Below are positions 1-41,255 of a stretch of DNA of 41,381 nt, piece by piece. Below the pieces are notes generated by a model. That model did no database searches. It had not been told where the DNA came from and worked only from the letters and a program-made list of their open reading frames with translations. This stretch comes from a virus. The position numbers were made by a program, and so were the translations under genes. The stretch lies in the IMG/VR virus record IMGVR_UViG_3300021475_000035, positions 1 through 41,381 of that record; one strand, 5' to 3'. Each line of letters begins with the position of its first letter. Positions within the stretch are counted from its first letter, which is position 1.

Positions 1-140
1 CAACGCATAACATTTTTTCCTTGCCTGAGTCAAACGATACCCCCGCCCCACGGTCATATTTGTTTTTAGGGTCTCTTTATGGCTCAGTGTTTGGCCTCAT
101 TGACCGCATTATTGTTTCGTTCGTTGGTCTCTACTGGGGT

Positions 141-367: not shown

Positions 368-601
368 ATGAATCGCTCCAGACAATTCAAGGCTCACCAA
401 CTCATTCAACGCATCGCAAACGGTCCCGCTAACCTGAGCGATGCTGACCGCAGGGGATACAACCTTTGGGTATCAACTTGGGTATTAGGACAACTGACAG
501 AGTTGGTCCCAGAGCTGAAAGACGCTCAGGTTACTTATGCCACGTCAGAGCCTCAAGGCGATATCGAAATTCCCGGATACACCACGCGGGAGGTTCGCTA
601 G
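368..601 (+). CDS. Small hypothetical protein, first early gene
   Basis: A 77-residue soluble protein of unknown function; I do not recognise the family. It is rich in polar residues, with one Trp-containing hydrophobic segment in the middle (LWVSTWVLGQLTELV). The start is supported by an AGAAAGG motif 11 nt upstream and by the hairpin leader that other early genes also carry. Its stop codon overlaps the GTG start of the AAA+ gene (TAGTG), so the two are almost certainly translationally coupled and may act together. No signal peptide, membrane segment or metal-binding motif is visible. Confidence 0.65.
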   Translation: MNRSRQFKAHQLIQRIANGPANLSDADRRGYNLWVSTWVLGQLTELVPELKDAQVTYATSEPQGDIEIPGYTTREVR

Positions 602-1248
602 TGTTCACCTTCGAACCTTCTACCGAAGCATCGCAACTCCTGACGGATATCTACAGGCCAAGACGCGTATCCGATTTCATCGGATTGGATAGCGTGAAAC
701 GACTCGCGTCCAAACTGATAGCCAAACCGTTTAGCTCCTACTACATTTTTCGCGGTCCCTCCGGGATGGGAAAGACTACCTTTTCGCTTGCGTTGGCGAA
801 TGAGATGGGAGCGGAGCTGCATCACATCCCATCGCAGGACTGTACCGTTGACGTTATAGAACGCGTGCATCGCGCGTGCTTCTATATGCCTTCGCAGGGC
901 AAACGTTGCCACATGATTCTGATAGATGAAGCGGACCTTATGACCAAAGCATCGCGGGATTGTCTTCTTTCGATGATGGATGGGACGCGTCCCGCTCCGC
1001 TGACAATAATCGTGATGACGTGCAACGAAGTTGAAAAATTCGAAGATCGTTTTCAATCCCGCTGTATGACGTTTAACTTCTCTTCGCAAGGTGTTTCCAA
1101 ACCGATTGCGGAGTTGCTTGCGAACATTTGGACCATTGAAGCTCCGGCGGATGCGGAGCTGCCAGACTTCGCGCGTATCACGCAGGATTCGAAGAATAAC
1201 GTCCGCCTTGCTTTGATGAAATTGCAGCAAAAAATAATTTGCGCGTGA
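601..1248 (+). CDS. AAA+ ATPase resembling a clamp-loader (RFC) small subunit, no collar domain
   Basis: A 215-residue AAA+ ATPase. Features in order: RFC box II-like DIYRPRRVSDFIG (16-28), Walker A GPSGMGKTT (52-60), Walker B ILIDEAD (106-112), sensor-1 region ending in Asn142, and an SRC arginine-finger motif (153-155) typical of RFC/gp44/DnaX clamp loaders. True small subunits run to about 320 residues with a C-terminal collar for pentamer assembly; this protein stops after a short lid domain. GTG start: GGGAGG lies 7 nt upstream, and the start overlaps the previous stop. No sliding clamp, polymerase or other loader subunit was found nearby. It may act with host clamp-loader subunits or have been adapted to another remodelling job on DNA; the role is inference, the fold is clear. 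Confidence 0.85.
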   Translation: MFTFEPSTEASQLLTDIYRPRRVSDFIGLDSVKRLASKLIAKPFSSYYIFRGPSGMGKTTFSLALANEMGAELHHIPSQDCTVDVIERVHRACFYMPSQGKRCHMILIDEADLMTKASRDCLLSMMDGTRPAPLTIIVMTCNEVEKFEDRFQSRCMTFNFSSQGVSKPIAELLANIWTIEAPADAELPDFARITQDSKNNVRLALMKLQQKIICA

Positions 1249-6017: not shown

Positions 6018-6205
6018 CGGCCTCCTCGGTGTCTGGTGGCTCCGTGAAATGCCATCCATCGCCAGCGGTTCCACGGCTGTACATGGTGCGGCGGACGGTC
6101 TCCGCAGTGAGGACAAACGCAGGGTACGCCTAGATGATTACCGTAGCGTCGTGGCGTAAATAAGCCTTGCGAGTTGGGCGGCAAAACTCCTCGGAGGTAA
6201 GTCAT
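6014..6205 (-). CDS. Possible small His/Cys-rich protein
   Basis: A 63-residue frame covering the 120-bp gap between the zinc-finger gene and the 5694-6017 gene. It includes a CVCPHCGDRPPHH cluster that could bind zinc. It overlaps the end of the zinc-finger gene by 68 bp and the next ATG by 4 bp. The second half also reads plausibly in another frame (an acidic WHFTEPPDTEEADE segment), so the true coding frame, or a frameshift, is unresolved. Low confidence. Confidence 0.35.
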   Translation of the reverse strand: MTYLRGVLPPNSQGLFTPRRYGNHLGVPCVCPHCGDRPPHHVQPWNRWRWMAFHGATRHRGGR

Positions 6206-6908
6206 GTTCCGTCGCAATGCTGCGGCATAGTTCTTGGAACCTGCCAAGGGCAAGGGCAAGGGTGCCTTCGGGGATACCATTTGCAGGAGTGTGGGCTTCT
6301 TGGTGGTGTCCGTTGTTGGTTGTGATGGCGACGGCTGTGATGGTTTGGGCTGGCTCAATCGTTGTTCCTTTCTTGGCTGCTCTGAGTTGTGCTCGTTCTT
6401 CTCTTTTAAGTTTGGCCCTGCCGCTCTGGCTCAGGATTTTGTGAATTCGTGCGAGATGGTTGGCTAGGCCGATTTTCGAAGTTGCGCGGAATCCGCACTC
6501 AGTACATTGCAGCGGATCGCTGGCGCGGATCGCCACGGCGGTCGCGCTCTGGCTGACGGCTTTGTGTTTCGTCTTGCGGTGGATCGTCAGTCCGGCTTGG
6601 TCCTTGGCTTTGAAATCGCAGTCCGGGCATTGCACTGGATTAGCGGTGTACGAGCTGGCGGCTCCGTGATTCTTCATCCGGTGAAACGTGAGTCCGGCTT
6701 TGGTGACGGCTTTGAAATCGCAGTCGGGGCATTGGTGCAGCTCGGTGAGTTTGGGCCGCATGGCTTTCCGTTTTTGCGCGGCTCTGGCTGCGCTCGATGT
6801 TCCGGCGATACCATGCGCGAGACGGCGGTGCGAACCTAACACTTTTGCGTAATCAAACGTTGCATCGCAATCGGGACATGCGAACTTGGCTTTCTTTGCG
6901 GTCGTCAA
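6138..6908 (-). CDS. Four-finger C2H2 zinc-finger protein
   Basis: A 256-residue protein with four classical fingers, each exactly C-x2-C-x12-H-x4-H: Cys11/14-His27/32, Cys60/63-His76/81, Cys94/97-His110/115 and Cys135/138-His151/156. Each keeps the eukaryotic pattern of an aromatic residue 3-4 after the second Cys and a Leu before the His pair (e.g. CPDCDFKA...GLTFH). Linkers are 13-28 residues, longer than the TGEKP linkers of eukaryotic arrays. A basic region (about 163-178, KLKREERAQLRAAKK) and a helical C-terminal domain (about 212-256) follow. Sequence-specific DNA or RNA binding is likely; the target is unknown. Bacterial C2H2 proteins (Ros/MucR) normally have one finger, so four is unusual. 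The ATG overlaps the upstream gene's stop. Confidence 0.85.
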   Translation of the reverse strand: MTTAKKAKFACPDCDATFDYAKVLGSHRRLAHGIAGTSSAARAAQKRKAMRPKLTELHQCPDCDFKAVTKAGLTFHRMKNHGAASSYTANPVQCPDCDFKAKDQAGLTIHRKTKHKAVSQSATAVAIRASDPLQCTECGFRATSKIGLANHLARIHKILSQSGRAKLKREERAQLRAAKKGTTIEPAQTITAVAITTNNGHHQEAHTPANGIPEGTLALALGRFQELCRSIATEHDLPPRSFAAQLARLIYATTLR

Positions 6909-7492: not shown

Positions 7493-8839
7493 TTAGGCCG
7501 ATGCGGGAATCTTCTTTGCTCTCGCTTTCTTCGGAGCTGGTTTGGTCTCCTTCACGTCCAGCGGTTCCTCGTTGATCGCTTTCACTTCGCCGTCTTCAAG
7601 GTAGATTCCAACTTTGCCGCTGGTATCCACGCACTCCACGAATACCTGAAAGTCTTTCTCCCATGTCATCCCGGCGATAATGTTCATGCTGTCGTCGTCC
7701 AACAAACTACCATCCTTTATCTGCATCACTCGGAGCTTGGGGTTTGCGGCCATGCCGATAGCGACACTGGCGCGTATCTGGTCGGCGTTCGATACCTGAT
7801 TGAACGGTAGACCTTCGTAGATAACCTCCTCGTCACCAAACCCCAGCCCTTCGACGGGAAAGTGGGCCTCCTCGATGGCCTTGGTGTTGGCCTCTGCGTG
7901 TTGGTCTAGGTTCTTCGATAGCGTCTCCACGCGTTTCTCGATGGCGTCAATTTCCTTTTGCAGCTCATCCCTCTGGAGCTTCTTGTCGATGGCTGCATTG
8001 ATCGCCTTCGCTTGCGTGATGGCCTCGGTGTAGTGGGCGGCGTTCTTCGGCTCCTGTAGCGGCTCCCACTTCTCCATGATCCGGCGCGTTCGTTCGAATG
8101 TATCGACTCCGACCTTCAATTCCTTTTCGAGCTTCGCAATCTGTTCTCGTAGAACCTGATTGGCCCATAACGTGTCGTCCTGTGCGCGTTCGATCTGTGC
8201 GCGTTGGTTCTTCTCGCGTTCGATACGCGCGTTGTGTTCGCCTACTTCGCCAAGCTGCCTCAACAGGTCGGCCTCGTCGCGCTTCTCCATCGGGAGATTG
8301 TCCGGGACAAGGATCGCATCGCGGCGGGTCTCCAGCGCGGTCACTTCCTTTTTCAGCTCCCGGCGTGAGATGTAGTCAGGGTGCTTCTGGATGTTGAGCG
8401 TCGTGGGGTCCACGTCCGGGAGAACAAGCGAGTACAGCACTTCGAATTGCTTCTTGGGATGCATCCGCAGAAACTCCAGCGGGTCAAAGCTGACGCGTCC
8501 CATCAGCTTGTCCAGCATGTCCTGTGGACCTTGGAATCGGGTCTTGCCGTCCTTCGATTCGATGGCCAGCACACCGTTGCGTGAGCCTCCTTCGACAAAG
8601 CGGCGATAGATGATTATGTCCTCTAGCTCCACGATGATTTCGGCTTTGCCGCTGCCCTTGCGGACGGGAAAGGATGGCACAGTGCTGGTCCCGGTCAACG
8701 CCCATACGATTGCATCGAGCACGCTGGTTTTGCCGGAGCCGTTGGCTCCGCTGATCCGGTTGATATGTCCGTTGGGCGTGAAGCTGATAGCCTTTAGTCT
8801 TTTCACGTTGGACGCGGTTAGTTTAATAATCCTGCTCAT
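7493..8839 (-). CDS. SMC/RecF-like ATPase
   Basis: A 448-residue AAA_23/SbcC-Rad50-type ATPase. It has an N-terminal SRIIKLTASNVKRLK strand-turn, Walker A GANGSGKTS (31-39), and a central coiled coil made of repeated Glu/Lys/Arg-rich helices. A C-terminal half-domain follows with an IRASVAIGMA signature-like helix and a LRVMQIKDGSLLDDDS segment where Walker B is expected. The coil is much shorter than in SbcC or SMC. No SbcD-like nuclease is nearby. Related phage proteins are thought to act in DNA recombination or protection, but the partner is unknown. The start at 8839 is chosen because SRIIKLTA is the usual family start and the longer frame is Ser/Pro-rich. The C-terminal tail is Lys/Ala-rich. 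Confidence 0.85.
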   Translation of the reverse strand: MSRIIKLTASNVKRLKAISFTPNGHINRISGANGSGKTSVLDAIVWALTGTSTVPSFPVRKGSGKAEIIVELEDIIIYRRFVEGGSRNGVLAIESKDGKTRFQGPQDMLDKLMGRVSFDPLEFLRMHPKKQFEVLYSLVLPDVDPTTLNIQKHPDYISRRELKKEVTALETRRDAILVPDNLPMEKRDEADLLRQLGEVGEHNARIEREKNQRAQIERAQDDTLWANQVLREQIAKLEKELKVGVDTFERTRRIMEKWEPLQEPKNAAHYTEAITQAKAINAAIDKKLQRDELQKEIDAIEKRVETLSKNLDQHAEANTKAIEEAHFPVEGLGFGDEEVIYEGLPFNQVSNADQIRASVAIGMAANPKLRVMQIKDGSLLDDDSMNIIAGMTWEKDFQVFVECVDTSGKVGIYLEDGEVKAINEEPLDVKETKPAPKKARAKKIPASA

Positions 8840-9077
8840 TCGTTCCTTCTTTCGGTGTGTCTGTTTCGGTTGCTTCAAACTCGATGACTTCGGAGAGTGT
8901 GGGGATGCTGTGGGGTCGCCACTCGCGGATGAACCATTCCCCCACGGGGCCGGGGCCGACAAAGTCCTGAGCCTCGGCTATGGCTGCGGCCTCGGAGTCG
9001 GCGTTATAAGCCCAATGCTCCACGATGGCGGTTGCATAGATTGGGACGCGTACCCGCACTTTGTAATGGCCCCTCAT
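8823..9077 (-). CDS. Hypothetical protein
   Basis: An 84-residue protein, unrecognised. The first half is a beta-hairpin-like sequence (HYKVRVRVPIYATAIVEHWAYNADSE) followed by a helix (AAAIAEAQDFV), a pattern seen in small double-psi or dodecin-like folds. The second half is acidic (EFEATETDTPKEG). It overlaps the SMC-like gene by 17 bp and the upstream gene by 4 bp, so all three are translationally coupled. Confidence 0.65.
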   Translation of the reverse strand: MRGHYKVRVRVPIYATAIVEHWAYNADSEAAAIAEAQDFVGPGPVGEWFIREWRPHSIPTLSEVIEFEATETDTPKEGTNEQDY

Positions 9078-27860: not shown

Positions 27861-29024
27861 CTAGGTAATGGCAGATACCGCGTCGATATAGCGGATGCGT
27901 TGGACAGGATCGGGTGGCAACGTTGCGGCATACATGCAGTTATAGGAAGCGAACCCGCCAATCATTTTTGACGGATCGTAGCCTGACGGCTCGGTGATGC
28001 GCCGGACCCAGACTTGCAAATTGCGCCAATCACCGTTACCTATTTGCGTGTTCTCTTTTGCTCCGAACGAGACGCCAATCAAGCCATCACGTCCGATGAC
28101 GTACGTTCGCAGCGCGGTCAGTGTCGTGCCGTCATAGTTGGGAGTCTGCTTCACCAGTGTTGACTGGTGGAATGAGACGCCGCCCCAGTCAATCAAAGTA
28201 ACTTGGTCGCCATCGGGAGCCGGAAGCTCCGTCAGCCGCTCGTTACCCTGCGCGGTGCGCTTAAGTACATCCACTAATGAATTATTAGTTTTATCCAGTA
28301 AAATATCACCAACTATGTGAGGATGGATTACGCCCGTGAAACGACCGCTTTCGAAGGGGAGGGCATTGACGCCGGTCAAAGACTGCGCGGCGATAATCAC
28401 ATCGTCGGACGTGACGGTTGCGGAACCTGTTTTCGATCCCGCTGAAACTGCGGGGTCGATAACGCTGGCTCCATCGGCTGTGTTCTGAAGCAGGGTATTA
28501 ATTACCTGCGCCATGCGGTAGGCCATCTGTACGCCCAACGCTTCTAGTGTGGGGTCGATGGCAGTTTGCAGAGCGTACGTGGAGATATTCGCGTAGTCCG
28601 CAAAATTCAACATGATGGTCGTGTTCTGCACGACCGAGACTGTGAGGCCCGTTTGGATCGTGCCTTCTGGCGCGGTCGTGAGCGGGGGAGCGGGAAGGTT
28701 CTGGTACATATACAAAACGAGACGATTCCCAGCGTTCTCGTCAATCTGCCGCCGCGAAGTGCATCGCACCCACGGGGTCTCAGCCTTAAGATTTTCTACG
28801 AAAATTTTGTCATAGGTAGTAACTACAGACTGCGGCAAATTCGTTGTGAGGTTCGACGCCGGAGAGACGCCGATGCACAACACTGCGCGGGAGTGTACCT
28901 TGCCCACGCTGCCCGTGTATAGAGCTACCTGCGTTCCAAACGCGCAAGTAAACTCTATGAACGGGACGACGAACTTCTGAAAGAACATTTTGCCGCGTGT
29001 GGCGGCAACGGATGACGTTTGCAT
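27861..29024 (-). CDS. Major capsid protein, N4-gp56-like
   Basis: A 387-residue capsid subunit. The sequence follows the pattern of the N4-gp56 major capsid family: a segment with YDKIFVENLKAETPWVRCTSRRQI (split by strands), then a P-domain-like LPAPPLTTAPEGTIQTG motif (about 108-124) preceding strands and the long helix LEALGVQMAYRMAQVINTLLQ. The C-terminal region includes IGRDGLIGVSFGAKENTQI. The length is in the family's range. It is located directly after the scaffold-like gene. The start at 29024 has a GAGGGGG ribosome-binding site 8 nt upstream. This identification is by recalled family pattern. Confidence 0.75.
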   Translation of the reverse strand: MQTSSVAATRGKMFFQKFVVPFIEFTCAFGTQVALYTGSVGKVHSRAVLCIGVSPASNLTTNLPQSVVTTYDKIFVENLKAETPWVRCTSRRQIDENAGNRLVLYMYQNLPAPPLTTAPEGTIQTGLTVSVVQNTTIMLNFADYANISTYALQTAIDPTLEALGVQMAYRMAQVINTLLQNTADGASVIDPAVSAGSKTGSATVTSDDVIIAAQSLTGVNALPFESGRFTGVIHPHIVGDILLDKTNNSLVDVLKRTAQGNERLTELPAPDGDQVTLIDWGGVSFHQSTLVKQTPNYDGTTLTALRTYVIGRDGLIGVSFGAKENTQIGNGDWRNLQVWVRRITEPSGYDPSKMIGGFASYNCMYAATLPPDPVQRIRYIDAVSAIT

Positions 29025-30704: not shown

Positions 30705-32822
30705 TTAACCTCCCACCGGGGCAAAGAATTGGCTGCTCTGCATCTGGCGTTCGTCTGCTGTGCGCTGTGCGAAGGCAGCGGCCCGGTTGAGTGGCGATTC
30801 TACTGCGGTCTGGTGAACGGTGTTGATACTCTTCGCGGCGATTCTCCCGGCAATTTTCTTGTCCTCCAGTGCCATCTGGAATTGCTGATCCTGCTGCGTG
30901 GCGGCGGCTTGCGCCTGTGCCTTGATGACTTCGGGGTTCGATTGCGCCATCATCTGTTGCTCCTGCGGAGTGAGCTGCACAATGAGGTCGTTTTGATTCT
31001 TCCATCCGCTCATGTCGAGCACCATCTTGGTCAGCTCCAGCGCGTTCACCTTCCATCCGATTTGCGCGAGTTGCTGCACGAGTGCCTGATTGCCAAGCAC
31101 CTCCAGCAAGAAGGGAAGGGCTTGTGCCATGCGGTTCCGCGCGGCCAGTCTGGTCCCGGCCAGCGTGTCAAACTTAACGTTGGCTTCCATGAAGTCCGCG
31201 AAGTCAACGGATAGATCGCTGGCGCGTTCGCCAAGGATCGCGCGAATTTCGGATATCGGCATCCGCTCCCGGACCATGTTCCAGAGGTAGCGAAGGAAGG
31301 GGAGAAACACGCCGTCGATGAATCGCTCCACCGGAGATTGCAGACGACCGGAGGACGCAGCACTAATCATTCCGGCCCCTGTACCGGATCGTCCTATGCT
31401 GCTCCCCCGGTCTGGGAGAGTCCCTTGTACGCTGGCTTGGTCAGCTCCGGTCGCACCCTCGCTGGTGCTGACTACGGCCATGATCGCTCTCCATGCATCA
31501 GGCGGGACCTGTGGCGATGGCACGAGGGCAACTGCTCGTGTGGCGTCGTCGCCGTCAACCAGCCTGATTCCTCCCAGCCTTCGCCTCTGGTCCTGTGTCG
31601 GCACGTTCGCGCCTCGCGCGATGGCATACTCCGGCTGGCACGCGAACGCCAAAATGTCCAGAATTGCATTTAAACAGCCCTGTTCGACCCGTTGGTCCGC
31701 TCCTGCTATACGGCCAACCCCCATCCCTAGCCCTGCGTTTTCGATATCCCAGTAGTTCGCACTGAGAAACGGTTTGTCCGGGAGACGGTGTGGAGCATTG
31801 CGGATTACCACCTTCTTTTGCAGGACGGTTCGGACCTGTGTTTTGTTCCACCACTCCAAACATTCCATTGGTTTCATCAGCGGGTCTTCGGATATCTCGG
31901 TGTCCTGCCGCTCGGCATGGAAGACGCTGGTGTTCGCCGTCAACGCGTCTTCCACTCCGCTTATGCTCTGCACGTTCTCTGTGCCTTCCAAGAACATCGA
32001 CCGCAACACTTCATCGCTGGGAATGTCATAGTCCGGGTTGTCGCGCAGCTTGGTCAGGTCGTCATAGTTGAGATAGCGGCGGTTGACGATCCATTTCGCC
32101 TTCCAAAGCTGGTTGGGGCTGTTCCATGTCGGATCGGGGAAGACGGTTCCGAGTTCGCACTTTTCGAAGGTCGGACGGTTGTGGGTAACTTCTATGTCCA
32201 CCACTTCAAACTCATCCGATGCCTTGGTGACGACCGTCATCGCGTTGCCTATCGGCATGGCAACCTGTTGGGGAGCTTTCTTGCGGCGGTAGTGGCTCTC
32301 GATGCGGGTCTCGGTCTCCCATCCTAGTTTGAAGATCACCGTACCCTGATTGACCATCCCCTGAATTCCGTAACTGGCCTCCTGCTTGAAGTCGATATCT
32401 TCAAGCAACTGTGCAACGAGTTCCTTCCATGCCCTAGCCGTGTCCTGCGACACGCTGGGGCGGGGAACGATTTCGAACGGTGTCGGGTCCGAAAAAATCG
32501 CCCCTGAGATTGCCGGGGCGAGTGAGTTAACCTGCTTTGCTACGGAGAACCTTGAGACGTTGGCTCGTGTGACGCTGGTCCCTTCAAAGACCGTTGTCGT
32601 TCGTGGCGATTGGTATAAAACATCGCTCTCCGTCCACATCAGCGGCCAGCGTCGATCATTCATCCACGCTTCGGAACGCTCATAGTCCTGCACCACGATG
32701 GAGAGTACGGCGGCATCGGTATATTTTGGGTCTATCGCTGGATCGGGAGACGTTTTAACGTCTTTCGGTAGGACGGCTTGACTCCAATTGCTCTCCGCTA
32801 CGAGGGTCGCCGCAGCCGCCAT
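30705..32822 (-). CDS. Portal protein
   Basis: A 705-residue podovirus-type portal forming the dodecameric DNA channel at one capsid vertex. Visible features: N-terminal region with SIVVQDYERSEAWMNDRRWPL, the clip/stem region near DFKQEASYGIQGMVNQGTVIFKLGW (split) with the metal-free beta strands, and NAGLGMGVGRIAGADQRVEQG (about 385-405). A long C-terminal helical barrel rich in Gln/Ala (about 625-690) completes it. The start at 32822 is chosen because GTGAGG precedes it; the upstream GTG is part of that site. It lies between terminase and scaffold, as usual. No frameshift seen. Confidence 0.85.
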   Translation of the reverse strand: MAAAATLVAESNWSQAVLPKDVKTSPDPAIDPKYTDAAVLSIVVQDYERSEAWMNDRRWPLMWTESDVLYQSPRTTTVFEGTSVTRANVSRFSVAKQVNSLAPAISGAIFSDPTPFEIVPRPSVSQDTARAWKELVAQLLEDIDFKQEASYGIQGMVNQGTVIFKLGWETETRIESHYRRKKAPQQVAMPIGNAMTVVTKASDEFEVVDIEVTHNRPTFEKCELGTVFPDPTWNSPNQLWKAKWIVNRRYLNYDDLTKLRDNPDYDIPSDEVLRSMFLEGTENVQSISGVEDALTANTSVFHAERQDTEISEDPLMKPMECLEWWNKTQVRTVLQKKVVIRNAPHRLPDKPFLSANYWDIENAGLGMGVGRIAGADQRVEQGCLNAILDILAFACQPEYAIARGANVPTQDQRRRLGGIRLVDGDDATRAVALVPSPQVPPDAWRAIMAVVSTSEGATGADQASVQGTLPDRGSSIGRSGTGAGMISAASSGRLQSPVERFIDGVFLPFLRYLWNMVRERMPISEIRAILGERASDLSVDFADFMEANVKFDTLAGTRLAARNRMAQALPFLLEVLGNQALVQQLAQIGWKVNALELTKMVLDMSGWKNQNDLIVQLTPQEQQMMAQSNPEVIKAQAQAAATQQDQQFQMALEDKKIAGRIAAKSINTVHQTAVESPLNRAAAFAQRTADERQMQSSQFFAPVGG

Positions 32823-32881
32823 AAGACGCCTCACACCGATGGTTCATGTCGGGTTCGGGTCGGAGGTTCCGGCCACTGCCG

Positions 32882-33212: not shown

Positions 33213-34949
33213 TTAGCCGTTCAAACCTCCAAGGATGTTCTCCAGCCCCAGCTCATTGTATGGTGCATCGTTCGGGTCCGGCTCCTCAAAGGCTATCTCC
33301 TCCGGCTCCGGCTCCGGTGGTGCATAGCGGCCCCGGTTGTAGATCATGTTGTACTTGTCGCGCTCTTTCATCATCTCCCACGCTATATCCTCGTCGTCGC
33401 GCCCCTCGGCGGCGATGGATTGCGGAAGGTTGTCGGCCACGCGCGAGACCACATCCGGCAATCCGTTCTCGTCCATCATGCCGTAACGGGTGAAGCCTTC
33501 GATGAGGAGTTTCAGTTTGGTGATGCCGTCAGAGAACAGGACCCGCGACATGGACATGTCGGCTTCAAGGTTGCGGATGCGGGTATCGCGTTCGCCGCTG
33601 TCGTCCTGAAACTCGGTCCATGTGATGTTGATTTCCCATCCTGTCGTCAGCGCGTAATTCTGGATGGTCGATTGCATCAGACGCGCCCCCGGCGAGTCTT
33701 CGATGGAGATGGTGTGGACGCCGAACTTTCGCGCGGTGTCGTGAATCAGCTTGGCCAGCACGCTCGGCTTGTAATGGCCTTGCAAAGCCTCCGCAATCGT
33801 CATGCGGTTGAGGTATCTGATCCCGATGGCCGCGTTCGCCGTGGCCCATCCCATCTTCCTGCATGGGAGTCTCCAGTGGATGAAGGTATCGCCCTCCATC
33901 GGTACGGTGTCCTCCGGCACGATGGTATCCAGCAATTGACCTTCGGGAAAAACAATCTCTGCGGCTCCGTAGCTGTCCAGCATGTACTGGCTCATAAAAC
34001 TTGAGTAGTCGCCCTCGTACTCCTCGCGCAGAAAATCGTAATTCAGAATCGACGGGAATAGCAGAATTACATCGTCTTCAGCGGGGAAGCCGTTGGGGTC
34101 CAGACGTTCGCCGCTCTTGAGCTTCATGGCTGGCTTGTAGATGCGGCGGTAGCTCCCCGGCTTCGCCGTCAACACCTGATCGCTGAAAACATCTCCGGCT
34201 CCGTATGGCGTTCCGATCATCAGTTCGAATCCGGTCGGCTTCAGGATTTTGCGCGTGAGCTTGTAGTCCTTGGTGATGTTCACTCGCGCTTCGAAGGTCT
34301 TGGAGTTGCGGTTGTTGTGAATGTCGTCGTAGATCGCTACATCCGGGTGCCAGCCTGTCGTGCTCGATGCCAGCGAGTTGCCCCAGATAAGCGGCTCCAG
34401 AATCTTCGGCTCGTGCTGGCGCAATGCAGCGGTGAAGACGCCACGTTGCGGCTCCTTGTCAACGCACAGCTCCGGGAAGAGAGTTTGAAACAGCGTCGGC
34501 GGTCGGCGGGGATGGCGATAAAAGAAGCTCGATACTTGGTCCACGAAGTCAAAGGACAACTCCTTGGCTCCGCTGATAATCAGGATGGCGATGGTCATGT
34601 AGTAATGCAGAATAAGCCGGATGCAGTTGGCTAGGTCCAGCGTTGACTTATAGGTATTGCGGGGATATATCAGCGTCCCGCGCCGTTTGATCCCCACGGC
34701 CAGCTCTTCCACGGTTTTGTTGTCGTCTATCTCCGGGAAAAACTCGATGGCTTCTTTGTGAACCTCTTCGGTGATGAGGCAATAGCCAAGCACGTAGCAG
34801 AGTGCGAGAAGGTTGTTCTCGCACAGGCGTCTGCCGTCTTCGCGTATCTGCTCGTCGGCTTGCGCCAAGACGGTAAGCTCGGCTCTCCACGCGCGATTGT
34901 CAGCCTTCTCCTGTGTCGGATCGCGCAGCCTTCGCCAGTTGAAATGCAT
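33213..34949 (-). CDS. Terminase large subunit
   Basis: A 578-residue packaging motor. The ATPase domain has a variant Walker A, PRNTYKST (96-103), that replaces the usual GxxxxGKS/T with a Pro-Arg type loop as in several phage terminases. Walker B is DVAIYDDI (203-210). The sensor/coupling region includes LMIGTPYGAGD. The C-terminal nuclease half contains ISIEDSPGARLMQ and WTEFQDDSGERDTRI, with Asp residues suited to metal binding (ISIED; FSDG). The acidic tail EPEPEEIAFEEPDPND is notable. Stop and start are adjacent to neighbours. No convincing small subunit lies nearby. Confidence 0.85.
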   Translation of the reverse strand: MHFNWRRLRDPTQEKADNRAWRAELTVLAQADEQIREDGRRLCENNLLALCYVLGYCLITEEVHKEAIEFFPEIDDNKTVEELAVGIKRRGTLIYPRNTYKSTLDLANCIRLILHYYMTIAILIISGAKELSFDFVDQVSSFFYRHPRRPPTLFQTLFPELCVDKEPQRGVFTAALRQHEPKILEPLIWGNSLASSTTGWHPDVAIYDDIHNNRNSKTFEARVNITKDYKLTRKILKPTGFELMIGTPYGAGDVFSDQVLTAKPGSYRRIYKPAMKLKSGERLDPNGFPAEDDVILLFPSILNYDFLREEYEGDYSSFMSQYMLDSYGAAEIVFPEGQLLDTIVPEDTVPMEGDTFIHWRLPCRKMGWATANAAIGIRYLNRMTIAEALQGHYKPSVLAKLIHDTARKFGVHTISIEDSPGARLMQSTIQNYALTTGWEINITWTEFQDDSGERDTRIRNLEADMSMSRVLFSDGITKLKLLIEGFTRYGMMDENGLPDVVSRVADNLPQSIAAEGRDDEDIAWEMMKERDKYNMIYNRGRYAPPEPEPEEIAFEEPDPNDAPYNELGLENILGGLNG

Positions 34950-37776: not shown

Positions 37777-38190
37777 CTACTCCATTCTTGAAACGGTGAA
37801 GACCGTTTTGGGGTTCACGCGGTCGTGTTTGTGTGGGAGTACGCGGAAGTCTTCGATAAAGGCATCCGAGTGGATCACACCAGCGTTTTCCAGTGCATCG
37901 CACAAGAGCTTTCCGCAGTTGTCGGCATCAAGCCTCTGCCGTGGGCCTAGATAAACATGCACCTCCACGCGGTACTTGACCTTGCTCCGTTCGCGGTTGG
38001 TGAGTGGCGCAACGGTGCGGCCTCGCGCGAAGATCGCAACCGCATCCTTGAACGCCTTGGCCTCTTGGGTGAGTTTGTAGCCGTGATGCATGAAGCCATC
38101 CCGCCCGATATACGTCGTCGGCTTCTTGTAGTGGTTCACCGATGGCGGCGTTAGGTGCGGCACCGTGAAGGTCACTGCGTCTTCGATCAT
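37777..38190 (-). CDS. rusA: RusA-family Holliday junction resolvase
   Basis: A 137-residue RusA-type endonuclease (PF05866), which resolves four-way DNA junctions as a dimer with Mg2+. Conserved acidic residues are visible: RLDADN (Asp88 and Asp90) and HSDAF (Asp109), with the family's KLLCDALENAGVI helix between. N-terminal TPPSVNHYKK matches the family start. It is the first gene of the leftward late unit, in a position where packaging-linked junction clearance makes sense. The start at 38190 is chosen by homology; an ATG at 38208 is also open. No ribosome-binding site precedes either, so the mRNA may be leaderless. Confidence 0.85.
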   Translation of the reverse strand: MIEDAVTFTVPHLTPPSVNHYKKPTTYIGRDGFMHHGYKLTQEAKAFKDAVAIFARGRTVAPLTNRERSKVKYRVEVHVYLGPRQRLDADNCGKLLCDALENAGVIHSDAFIEDFRVLPHKHDRVNPKTVFTVSRME

Positions 38191-38231
38191 TGCTGTTGAC
38201 AATACCATAACTGTAAGGCGACTATATACCC
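38191..38231. promoter_or_regulatory. Compact divergent promoter region
   Basis: Only 41 bp separate the late operon from the rightward replication module. It contains TTGACA (38195-38200) and GACTAT/TATATA (38220-38228) towards the right, with 19-22 bp spacing (longer than ideal). Neither flanking start codon has a ribosome-binding site, so both transcripts are possibly leaderless. No clear leftward promoter is visible, though the late operon must start about here. Confidence 0.5.
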
Positions 38232-38459
38232 ATGACTACCAGAAAAGCAACAAAACCATTCGTTCGTGGTGTCGGTAATCAGACCAAAAAGCGGACGGGG
38301 TATGTCGTCACGAGTCTCCGTCTTCTGGCACAGGAAAACCGCGAACTTCGACGCGCGGCCAAGCGTGAGGGAATCTCCTTCAACGGCTGGGCTATCAACA
38401 CACTTCTAACCGCTGCACGAAAGGGTACATCAGCCAATGGCGAAACCGATAACTCCTAA
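38232..38459 (+). CDS. Small ribbon-helix-helix-like regulator
   Basis: A 75-residue protein with basic N-terminus (TTRKATKPFVRG) and a segment YVVTSLRLLAQENRELRRAAKREGISFNGWAI (split over 25-55) that reads as strand, helix A, helix B of a CopG/Arc-type RHH protein. First gene of the rightward module that ends in RepA, so a role in controlling replication or the divergent late promoter is plausible. No ribosome-binding site upstream; promoter to ATG distance suggests a leaderless mRNA. Confidence 0.65.
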   Translation: MTTRKATKPFVRGVGNQTKKRTGYVVTSLRLLAQENRELRRAAKREGISFNGWAINTLLTAARKGTSANGETDNS

Positions 38460-38906: not shown

Positions 38907-39206
38907 ATGGCGACGATTTTGCGCGTTGAAGGAACACAGGAAGTTATCACTCCGGCCAACGGACACTGGCGGCTGGAGGAGTTGCAAACGATGGTCGGCG
39001 GCTACATCGAAATTCTCCGCACCGTAGACGGCAAGTTTCTGGTGGTTGACGAAGAGGGCAAGCTAAAGAAGAAGCCCCGGAACGATCAAGCCACACGGCT
39101 CTACATCTACGGCCAGCATGACGCGGTTTGCGGAACGGCGGTGCTGGTGGATACTAGGCTGGAGATAAACGGGCCTGACGAGGACGAGGACGAGGAGGAA
39201 GAGTGA
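38907..39206 (+). CDS. DUF3846-type protein
   Basis: A 99-residue protein with the DUF3846 (PF12957) pattern: LEELQTMVGGYIEILRTVDGKFLVVDEEGKLKKKP (split over 24-62), then N-x2-AT-x-LY and AVCGTAVLVD. These proteins are frequent on phages and plasmids and have no assigned role. GGGAGG upstream of the ATG. The C-terminus is a run of Asp/Glu (DEDEDEEEE). It is in the replication-side module, overlapping the next gene by one base. Confidence 0.8.
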   Translation: MATILRVEGTQEVITPANGHWRLEELQTMVGGYIEILRTVDGKFLVVDEEGKLKKKPRNDQATRLYIYGQHDAVCGTAVLVDTRLEINGPDEDEDEEEE

Positions 39207-39463: not shown

Positions 39464-39627
39464 GCTTATGTGAGATGTGTAAAAAGCATCCATCGAAGCC
39501 GGACAGTAACCTTTGCGAAATATGCTCAAAGGACTACTATGCCGCGATGTGGGGCTGCACTGAAGAAGAGTTTTCGGCGCGATTTAAACGGATCGCTCAG
39601 GAGGGTATGGATGGGCGCGATAACTGA
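39460..39627 (+). CDS. Small zinc-binding protein before repA
   Basis: A 55-residue protein with TTG start (AAGGAG lies 6-7 nt upstream, overlapping the previous stop). Two Cys pairs, CEMCKK (4-9) and CEICSK (19-24), form a zinc-ribbon-like knuckle, followed by a helix with EEEFSARFKRIAQEG. It overlaps the repA start by 17 bp, so translation of the two is probably linked; it may modulate RepA production. Confidence 0.65.
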   Translation: MSLCEMCKKHPSKPDSNLCEICSKDYYAAMWGCTEEEFSARFKRIAQEGMDGRDN

Positions 39628-40588
39628 AGGTGCATTGAATCCGATAACTGGAGCGGTCGCTGAGAGACTTTTCGAGGCAACGCTACAGATGTACGACATT
39701 GAGCGGGGGATTGTTGCGTCCCGAAAGCTGGCGTTTCTCAATCCTATTTTGGCTCAGACGAGTATGCCCTACACGGACCCCGGCGAATTGCCGTTTTATA
39801 AGTGCGAGAACGGGAATGTTGCGATGACATGGGTTCGCGGGACGCTGCGAAATCCTTATACGGGGGAGGTCACTCTACAGGGCTATCCCTATGGGACAAA
39901 GCCGCGTTTGATGCTTCTCTATCTCTGCACTCGCGCGACACTCACGCGAAGCCGCGAAATATACCTTGGTGGCAGTCTCAAAGACTTCCTCGGTAGGCTC
40001 GGCATTAATCAATCGACGGGCGGAGCGAACGGCTCTCTTTTCCGTACAAAAGATCAGTTGATGAGGCTCACGGCTTCGCATTTGCAACTCCACTACACGG
40101 ACGGAAAACACTACTCCATGATTTCCCCGAACCAACCTATACGGAAGTTCGATTATTGGCTTCCCGACACACTTCACGAAACCGCGAAGTGGGAGGGGAT
40201 GGTGACACTCGATGAAGAGTTATACAGGTGTCTCATGGATGGCAATATGCCTCTTTGCCAAGAGGCAATTGTTGCCCTACAAAACTCCCCGATGGCGTTG
40301 GATGTGTATGCGTGGCTGGCCTTCCGTCTCTGGCGCATCAAAACTTCACCACTACAGCCGTTGCCGTGGAAGACACTGCAAAACCAGTTCGGACCAAACT
40401 ATACCCTGACGCGGCAATTCAGAGCCGATTTTTGCAAGGTCCTCAAGCGTGTTTTGGCGGTCTACCCCCAAGCGAAAATTGATTTCTCGCCTGACGGGGA
40501 ATTGATCCTGAAGCGTTCAGCTCCTCCCGTGGGGCGGAAGGATATCGAGATTGTGCAATCAGTATTACCATTCCCCATAAAGAGTTGA
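39611..40588 (+). CDS. repA: Plasmid replication initiator RepA
   Basis: A 325-residue initiator of the RepA family (PF04796), which binds iterons and opens the origin for the host helicase. Family features: TLRNPYTGEVTLQGYPYGTKPRLMLLYLCT (split), LTRSREIYLGGSLKDFLGRLGI, and GGANGSLFRTKDQLMRL, the first winged-helix domain. The second domain has SPMALDVYAWLAFRLWRI and LPWKTLQNQFG. Start at 39611 has AGGAGGG 5 nt upstream and overlaps the zinc-binding gene. The 18-bp iterons begin 17 bp after its stop codon, the standard cis arrangement of iteron plasmids. No frameshift; length is normal. Confidence 0.9.
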   Translation: MGAITEGALNPITGAVAERLFEATLQMYDIERGIVASRKLAFLNPILAQTSMPYTDPGELPFYKCENGNVAMTWVRGTLRNPYTGEVTLQGYPYGTKPRLMLLYLCTRATLTRSREIYLGGSLKDFLGRLGINQSTGGANGSLFRTKDQLMRLTASHLQLHYTDGKHYSMISPNQPIRKFDYWLPDTLHETAKWEGMVTLDEELYRCLMDGNMPLCQEAIVALQNSPMALDVYAWLAFRLWRIKTSPLQPLPWKTLQNQFGPNYTLTRQFRADFCKVLKRVLAVYPQAKIDFSPDGELILKRSAPPVGRKDIEIVQSVLPFPIKS

Positions 40589-40605
40589 AAATTAAAGGAA
40601 ATGTA

Positions 40606-40751
40606 ACGCATAAACGCTGACGCTTTCGTTTTCCACAATCAACCTGTGGATTTCCCTAGTTTTCCACGCATAAACGCTGACGCTCAATTTGCTGAATTTT
40701 CGATTTTTCCACGCATAAACGCTGACGCTTTCGACGCATAAACGCTGACGC
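40606..40751 (+). repeat. Four identical 18-bp iterons
   Basis: ACGCATAAACGCTGACGC occurs at 40606, 40666, 40711 and 40734, all in the same orientation and without mismatches. Start-to-start distances shrink from 60 to 45 to 23 bp. The last two copies are nearly in tandem and face the AT-rich stretch. They are the expected binding sites of the RepA encoded just upstream. Confidence 0.95.
40629..40653. promoter_or_regulatory. Inverted pair of DnaA-box-like sites
   Basis: TTTTCCACA (40629-40637) differs in one position from the DnaA-box TTATCCACA, and TGTGGATTT (40645-40653) is a second, weaker box on the opposite strand. They sit between iterons 1 and 2. Together they could recruit host DnaA. 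Confidence 0.6.
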
Positions 40752-40982
40752 ATATCTATATTGTTTTTAACCGGTACTACCTACCCGATAGCTTTTTAAG
40801 GAAAAGCACCGATAGCCGGTGAAGCGCGGCGGGTGGATATCTCAAGCGAGAAACGCAAAACGCAACCCAGCTCTGCAAGCGTTCTGGGCGGTTTGGGGTT
40901 ATCTACCCCTCATCGAAGGGCTTACAATCGCTCCTACCCCCCTCAGAAGCTCACGGCGGGGCATCGCAGGATCGGAGGCAAC

Positions 40983-41255
40983 GTGAAGGATCGCATTGGC
41001 AACACGCTGGCGAAGGGCGACAAGGTTGTGCTCCAACTCCCGGACCCGATGGTTTTCGGGTACGTCGCGGACGTGCAGGAGACGAACCACCTTGTCCGGG
41101 TGACGCAGCCCGGACACATCCTCGTGACCGCCGTCATCGCGCTCCCGGTGGCGGGAGTGGCCGACGACACCATTTTGCAGGTTGCGAAGGTTTACGACGT
41201 CGCCAAGGCATCGGAAGCCTCTCAGGGTACGTCAGACCCATCAAAGCCTAACTAA
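40983..41255 (+). CDS. Small hypothetical protein after the origin
   Basis: A 90-residue protein with GTG start and GGAGG 4 nt upstream; the longer in-frame upstream region is Ser/Arg-rich and not convincing. The sequence is beta-rich (VKDRIGNTLAKGDKVVLQLP, FGYVADVQETNHLVRV), like an SH3/KOW-type small barrel, ending with an Ala/Ser/Lys tail. Similar sequences occur as small phage proteins of unknown role. It lies between the origin and the window end, so it is the last rightward gene before the early leader if circular. Confidence 0.65.
   Translation: MKDRIGNTLAKGDKVVLQLPDPMVFGYVADVQETNHLVRVTQPGHILVTAVIALPVAGVADDTILQVAKVYDVAKASEASQGTSDPSKPN

Follow-up and report, generated by a model that had tools for sequence, protein, structure and literature searches.

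The RepA–iteron feature of the analysed DNA (the window, i.e., the whole 41,381-nucleotide stretch of IMG/VR record IMGVR_UViG_3300021475_000035) is most probably the genome-replication module of a likely virulent podovirus, in whose lineage a plasmid-type replicon swaps with an O-type initiator. We conclude that initiation in this lineage relies on at least two interchangeable modules, of which RepA with its iterons is one. The novelty is that a RepA_C–iteron replicon apparently serves a podovirus lineage as its main origin; both RepA_C replicons and O-type initiators had been described before, and the swapping of initiators is known from SGI1. A literature search, which reached few subscription papers, yielded no case of a RepA_C replicon in a virulent podovirus.

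The repA gene (39,611–40,588, + strand) encodes a 325-aa plasmid-type replication initiator, whose match to PF04796 (E 2.1e-24; 87 bits versus the curated cut-off of 26 in the profile search of the window ORF) assigns it to the RepA_C family. The protein is about 33–38% identical to plasmid RepAs. In the RepA tree, the phage RepAs were placed on one side of a branch and eleven plasmid RepAs on the other; the support of this branch is modest (74/76, 77% of bootstraps), and the exchange may have run in either direction. RepA gave no PHROG match at 0.01 and thus has no detectable homology to O. The AlphaFold model was of low confidence (mean pLDDT 60), and replication initiators headed the ranking of the fold search (Rep-DUE 8ac8, Pi 2nra, and RepE, with TrfA among the best), every match having an E value of at least 0.059 and none being significant. 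The dN/dS values of 0.07–0.12, obtained from the comparable, non-saturated pairs, show that RepA is subject to purifying selection. A profile search with a closer RepA set recovered known loci only, and the search of INPHARED (50,697 records, E 1e-5) matched no genuine phage, its single match being an unverified 3.9-kb low-coverage contig. The first-pass annotation had expected a plasmid-type replicon to be uncommon in a podovirus-type genome, and the INPHARED result agrees with this.

Just 3′ of repA, four perfect copies of the 18-bp iteron ACGCATAAACGCTGACGC start at 40,606, 40,666, 40,711, and 40,734 on the + strand. Iteron 1 occupies 40,606–40,623. Iterons 2 (40,666–40,683) and 3 (40,711–40,728) are directly preceded by TTTTCCAC, giving composite elements at 40,660–40,683 and 40,705–40,728, as was seen in the repeat scan and in the comparison with relatives, where the TTTTCCA ahead of iteron 2 is conserved. 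Iteron 4 (40,734–40,751) begins 23 bp after the start of iteron 3. These four 18-mers form the cluster of direct repeats of about 17–20 bp adjoining repA by which such replicons are recognized. None of 100 shuffles reached four copies, and no further iteron site was found in the 41-kb window at up to three mismatches (0.02 expected). A PF04796-type RepA followed at once by four perfect iterons had been proposed at first reading, and the profile match and the shuffle test bear this out. The DnaA-box-like sites proposed there fared less uniformly. The sequence TTTTCCACA (40,629–40,637, + strand) has one mismatch to TTATCCACA, and a second, weaker DnaA-box-like site was read on the − strand at 40,645–40,653 (TGTGGATTT on the + strand). 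The sites are present and TTTTCCAC recurs ahead of the iterons in relatives, but the 9-mer TTTTCCACA alone is not beyond chance genome-wide (three seen versus 1.6 expected). The last iteron is followed by an AT-rich, TATCTATATTGTTTTT-like stretch (40,752–40,774, + strand), which is similar in the closest relatives and is a candidate DNA-unwinding element. The sigma-70 promoter scan of the replication slot gave no match.

Relatives were collected from IMG/VR by a TerL search, yielding 37 relatives, and by a portal search, yielding 80 loci. PF04796 exceeded the cut-off in nine of the 37 records scanned first and in three of the next 44 (one of them, G005, being a repeat), while G039, where PF04796 stayed below the cut-off, has a RepA homologue detected by BLAST and iterons of its own. 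Iterons lie beside repA in all 11 RepA-bearing genomes, the window included. They are situated just downstream of repA in the window and nine relatives; in G008, repA is inverted and preceded by a different set of iterons. The last three iterons are spaced by 45–46 and 22–23 bp in all ten non-inverted RepA genomes, counting the window. One half-site of the iteron, CGCATAA/CGCTGA, is constant and the other half varies along with RepA (ACGCTGACGC in the window, TCGGTCGCGC in G003, ATGGTCGCGC in G016, TACCCCTCC in G007, and TCGCCGGG in G040), that is, the iteron sequence co-varies with its initiator. The presence, the spacing, and the half-site of the iterons, together with the dN/dS of RepA, indicate that the origin is under selection. 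No iteron array was found in ten RepA-negative relatives within 6.5 kb of the corresponding end, three of them having low-complexity or coding repeats only.

The gene order around the module is common to the relatives: RusA, a DUF3846 protein, the replication module, the MKDRIGN gene, and the contig end. In the window, the RusA-like Holliday junction resolvase is encoded at 37,777–38,208 (− strand; phrog_34, E 1.7e-15; PF05866), the DUF3846 protein, whose position is conserved, forms the left flank of the slot (38,907–39,206, + strand; PF12957, E 2.3e-12), and the small conserved gene starting with MKDRIGN forms the right flank (40,983–41,255, + strand; its frame is open from 40,833). Homologues of the latter adjoin the replication slot in most relatives, including RepA-negative ones. 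G003 carries a RepA homologue 66% identical to that of the window in the identical slot. In the RepA-negative relatives, the slot encodes a protein of about 230–400 aa, and ten proteins from these genomes were scanned against PHROG. The slot proteins of G056, G051, G047, G048, G078, G065, and G023 matched replication-initiation/O-like families with E values from 9e-11 (G056) to 5e-4, that of G023 being 2.5e-9; the match of G052 was marginal (E 0.022), and G033 matched another replication-initiation family (E 5e-18). G056 also has a DnaC-like helicase loader beside its slot initiator (E 7e-47), the only one seen, and no loader was visible in the window. No O-like homologue was detected in the RepA-positive relatives. 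Since O-like initiators are held between the same neighbours in the RepA-negative relatives, the plasmid- or genomic-island-type replicon and the O-type initiator appear to be interchangeable, and RepA looks like a genome-replication initiator rather than an add-on for plasmid maintenance.

A plasmid fragment fused to a phage contig by misassembly, which the first-pass annotation had named as the possible undoing of its proposal, would fit the location of RepA near the contig end, but it can be practically discounted. The same gene order is present in ten further RepA relatives, which were assembled independently from several metagenomes and are diverged in sequence, and the 40,983–41,255 segment beyond the iterons is a conserved gene of the phage group, present also in RepA-negative relatives. 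Misassembly was rejected on the ground that repA and the iterons occupy the same slot in the ten other relatives. Moreover, IMGVR_UViG_3300020034_000095 carries TerL (75%) and RepA (66%) on one contig, thus the RepA region is no artefact of the assembly of the window.

The rest of the window is that of a tailed phage. The large terminase subunit TerL (33,213–34,949, − strand) matched phrog_38 (E 1.1e-28), with the T7-type model NF033889 below its cut-off. The portal protein (30,705–32,834, − strand; phrog_1216, E 3e-23) and the N4-gp56-like major capsid protein (27,861–29,024, − strand; phrog_1357, E 7e-12) are 35% and 42% identical, respectively, to their counterparts in Tunturi_3, and an internal virion protein (phrog_511, E 4e-6) and an endolysin (phrog_315) were also identified. 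The PHROG matches confirmed the earlier listing of these gene types on the repA contig. The N4-gp56 name of the capsid is weak in terms of the TIGR04387 model (E 7e-6, below its cut-off) and is better supported by the identity with the Tunturi_3 capsid. Neither an integrase nor a DNA polymerase was found among the scanned window ORFs (Pfam, PHROG), just as had been noted at first reading. Tunturi_3, a phage of Tunturiibacter (Acidobacteriota), is the closest cultured relative and was identified as a podovirus by TEM (PMC11924767). Its portal and capsid identities hint at a podovirus morphotype for the window. At 35–42% identity Tunturi_3 is a lead, not proof, for the tail type and the host of this soil virus, which probably infects Acidobacteriota.

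Several other genes and repeats of the window deserve mention. The protein encoded at 38,232–38,459 (+ strand) was read as a ribbon-helix-helix protein and may be a regulator; some of the scanned small ORFs, this one possibly among them, gave weak Arc-like/repressor PHROG matches. A C2H2 zinc-finger array protein (6,138–6,908, − strand; Pfam matches to E 2e-15), unusual for a phage, has homologues in most long relatives. The DUF932 protein (1,342–2,223, + strand) is about 50% identical to plasmid homologues, and the SbcC-like AAA ATPase (7,493–8,962, − strand; phrog_1499, E 5e-84) is conserved in relatives. GGGCTAGTCCCACAAC occurs in three dispersed repeats of the early region, at 1,294, 2,294, and 2,525. 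A T4 gp44/RFC-like clamp loader is encoded in nearly all long relatives, in most of them near the left end. The window carries it as well, yet neither a polymerase nor a clamp of phage type was found there.

In the window, this clamp-loader AAA ATPase is encoded at 466–1,248 (+ strand; phrog_168, E 6e-25), its conserved part beginning at about 631. In the 19 contigs with the gene, the conserved part begins 165–685 bp from the left end, a range negligible by chance under an idealized uniform-break model, therefore fixed linear genome ends are most likely. The near-complete contigs have two ends common to all of them. The motif AGTCAAACGATACCCC marks the conserved left end of the window (28–43, + strand) and recurs in five relatives, at most about 75 bp away from the contig end. 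Fixed linear ends fit virion-packaged DNA, and a shared assembly obstacle at one site could contribute to the common contig ends. A circular genome was rejected, as a search of the window and 15 relatives revealed no terminal direct repeat. Fold-back inverted repeats were observed at 7 of 39 genome-terminal contig ends, compared with 1 among the 93 other contig ends (Fisher p 8e-4), for example in G023, G051, G054, G012, and G077; they may be real hairpins or artefacts of the libraries at physical ends of the DNA.

The first-pass annotation had regarded the window as a candidate phage-plasmid, i.e., a temperate virus whose extrachromosomal plasmid prophage is kept by RepA and the iterons. Phage structural and packaging genes are indeed combined with a plasmid replication gene on one replicon, and this replicon is real, conserved, complete, and homologous to those of true plasmids. 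The DUF932 gene with its plasmid copies, the absence of an integrase (none above the cut-off in 22 near-complete genomes), and small putative ribbon-helix-helix proteins that could act as regulators point in the same direction, and mycobacteriophages with RepA prophages offer a precedent, but these carry parABS (PMC7157519). The plasmid lifestyle itself is weakly supported. The partition and stability genes that are usual, if not universal, in phage-plasmids were not found: ParA (PF13614), ParB (PF02195), and telomere resolvase (PF16684) were absent from all 22 near-complete genomes, and neither toxin–antitoxin families nor partition genes appeared among the Pfam and PHROG matches of the window ORFs. 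The CI-type HTH_3 domain was absent from all RepA genomes tested, exceeding the cut-off in two of the 22 genomes, both RepA-negative. The portal had no match among 72,556 plasmids (PLSDB), and no TerL or portal relative was found in GTDB contigs; each GTDB scan relied on just two short conserved patterns and may have overlooked distant relatives. The contig ends are fixed and never permuted, and the slot is normally occupied by phage O-type initiators. Taken together, we consider a plasmid prophage unlikely, and stable plasmid persistence is possible but not supported.

The terminal fold-backs raised the question of an N15-type linear plasmid prophage, which was rejected since there is no telomere resolvase and the left and right end sequences differ. 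A linear podoviral phage-plasmid that has closed or protected ends, depends on RepA and the iterons for its maintenance, and, unlike N15, lacks a known telomere resolvase would be compatible with the fixed ends and the fold-back excess. Ordinary linear virion DNA would account for both equally well, and we regard a phage-plasmid of this kind as very improbable. Only slightly less improbable is that the RepA–iteron segment is a passenger, or an anti-plasmid or superinfection device acting through incompatibility, with genome replication starting elsewhere. RepA–iteron elements such as SGI1 can destabilize other plasmids (PMC7433901), and the window has accessory genes including that of the SbcC-like ATPase. 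However, a recognizable replication initiator occupies exactly the same slot in RepA-negative relatives, RepA-positive relatives have no detectable O-like homologue, and the module is under selection with conserved iteron spacing.

For the preferred reading, an exchangeable genome-replication module, the following course can be proposed. A plasmid- or SGI1-type RepA–iteron replicon would have displaced, or been displaced by, an O-type initiator. By analogy with SGI1, RepA would bind the four iterons that follow its gene, host DnaA may assist it at the TTTTCCAC sites, and the AT-rich stretch after iteron 4 would be melted. RepA would then start theta-type replication by recruiting the helicase and polymerase of the host; a polymerase gene of the phage itself was not found. 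By its position, the plasmid-type iteron replicon stands as an exchangeable substitute for an O-type initiator across one podovirus clade. Consequently, the presence of repA in a phage contig does not on its own point to a phage-plasmid, and this is relevant to automated surveys of such elements. The copy number of plasmid iteron replicons is ordinarily limited by handcuffing, and this raises the question of how a replicon family controlled in this way serves a lytic burst.

Among known systems, Tunturi_3 resembles the window in its late gene order (terL, portal, three small genes, and capsid versus terL, portal, small genes, and capsid), but it differs in its 97.6-kb genome, UvsX-like recombinase, and ribonucleotide reductase. 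PF04796 had no match in Tunturi_3, in a search that matched no control genome either. The lambda-type O protein is a phage initiator that binds origin repeats and starts theta replication with the host replisome; O-like proteins fill the same slot in the sister genomes, whereas the RepA of the window is not detectably homologous to O. Among the phage-plasmids, P1 and N15 have genes for partition and lysogeny. Together with SSU5 and the RepA mycobacteriophages (Miko, Rachaly, and Jeeves), they share with the window a phage genome with a plasmid-type initiator, but they are temperate, and partition and lysogeny genes of these kinds were not found in the window. The closest parallels of the replicon are SGI1 and RepA_C plasmids such as pXAC64, from which the window differs in that its replicon lies in a tailed-phage genome, no partition, conjugation, or integration genes were found, and RepA and the second half of the iteron are diverged. 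In SGI1, the gene of the RepA_C initiator is directly followed by four 17-bp iterons and a DnaA box, rep and oriV are both experimentally required for replication, and in SGI1 variants RepA_C is replaced by an unrelated initiator (PMC7433901). Read from the opposite strand, the iteron consensus of SGI1, RKGGGGGHRATTATGCG, becomes CGCATAATYDCCCCCMY (PMC7433901), and in this reverse-complemented form, CGCATAAT..CCCCC, it contains the half-site common to the phage iterons. The window shares with SGI1 the number of four iterons, accompanied by AT-rich sequence and by a DnaA box that is DnaA-box-like in the window, and with both SGI1 and the RepA_C plasmids the RepA_C initiator with iterons directly downstream and the iteron half-site CGCATAAT / CACGCTGAA.
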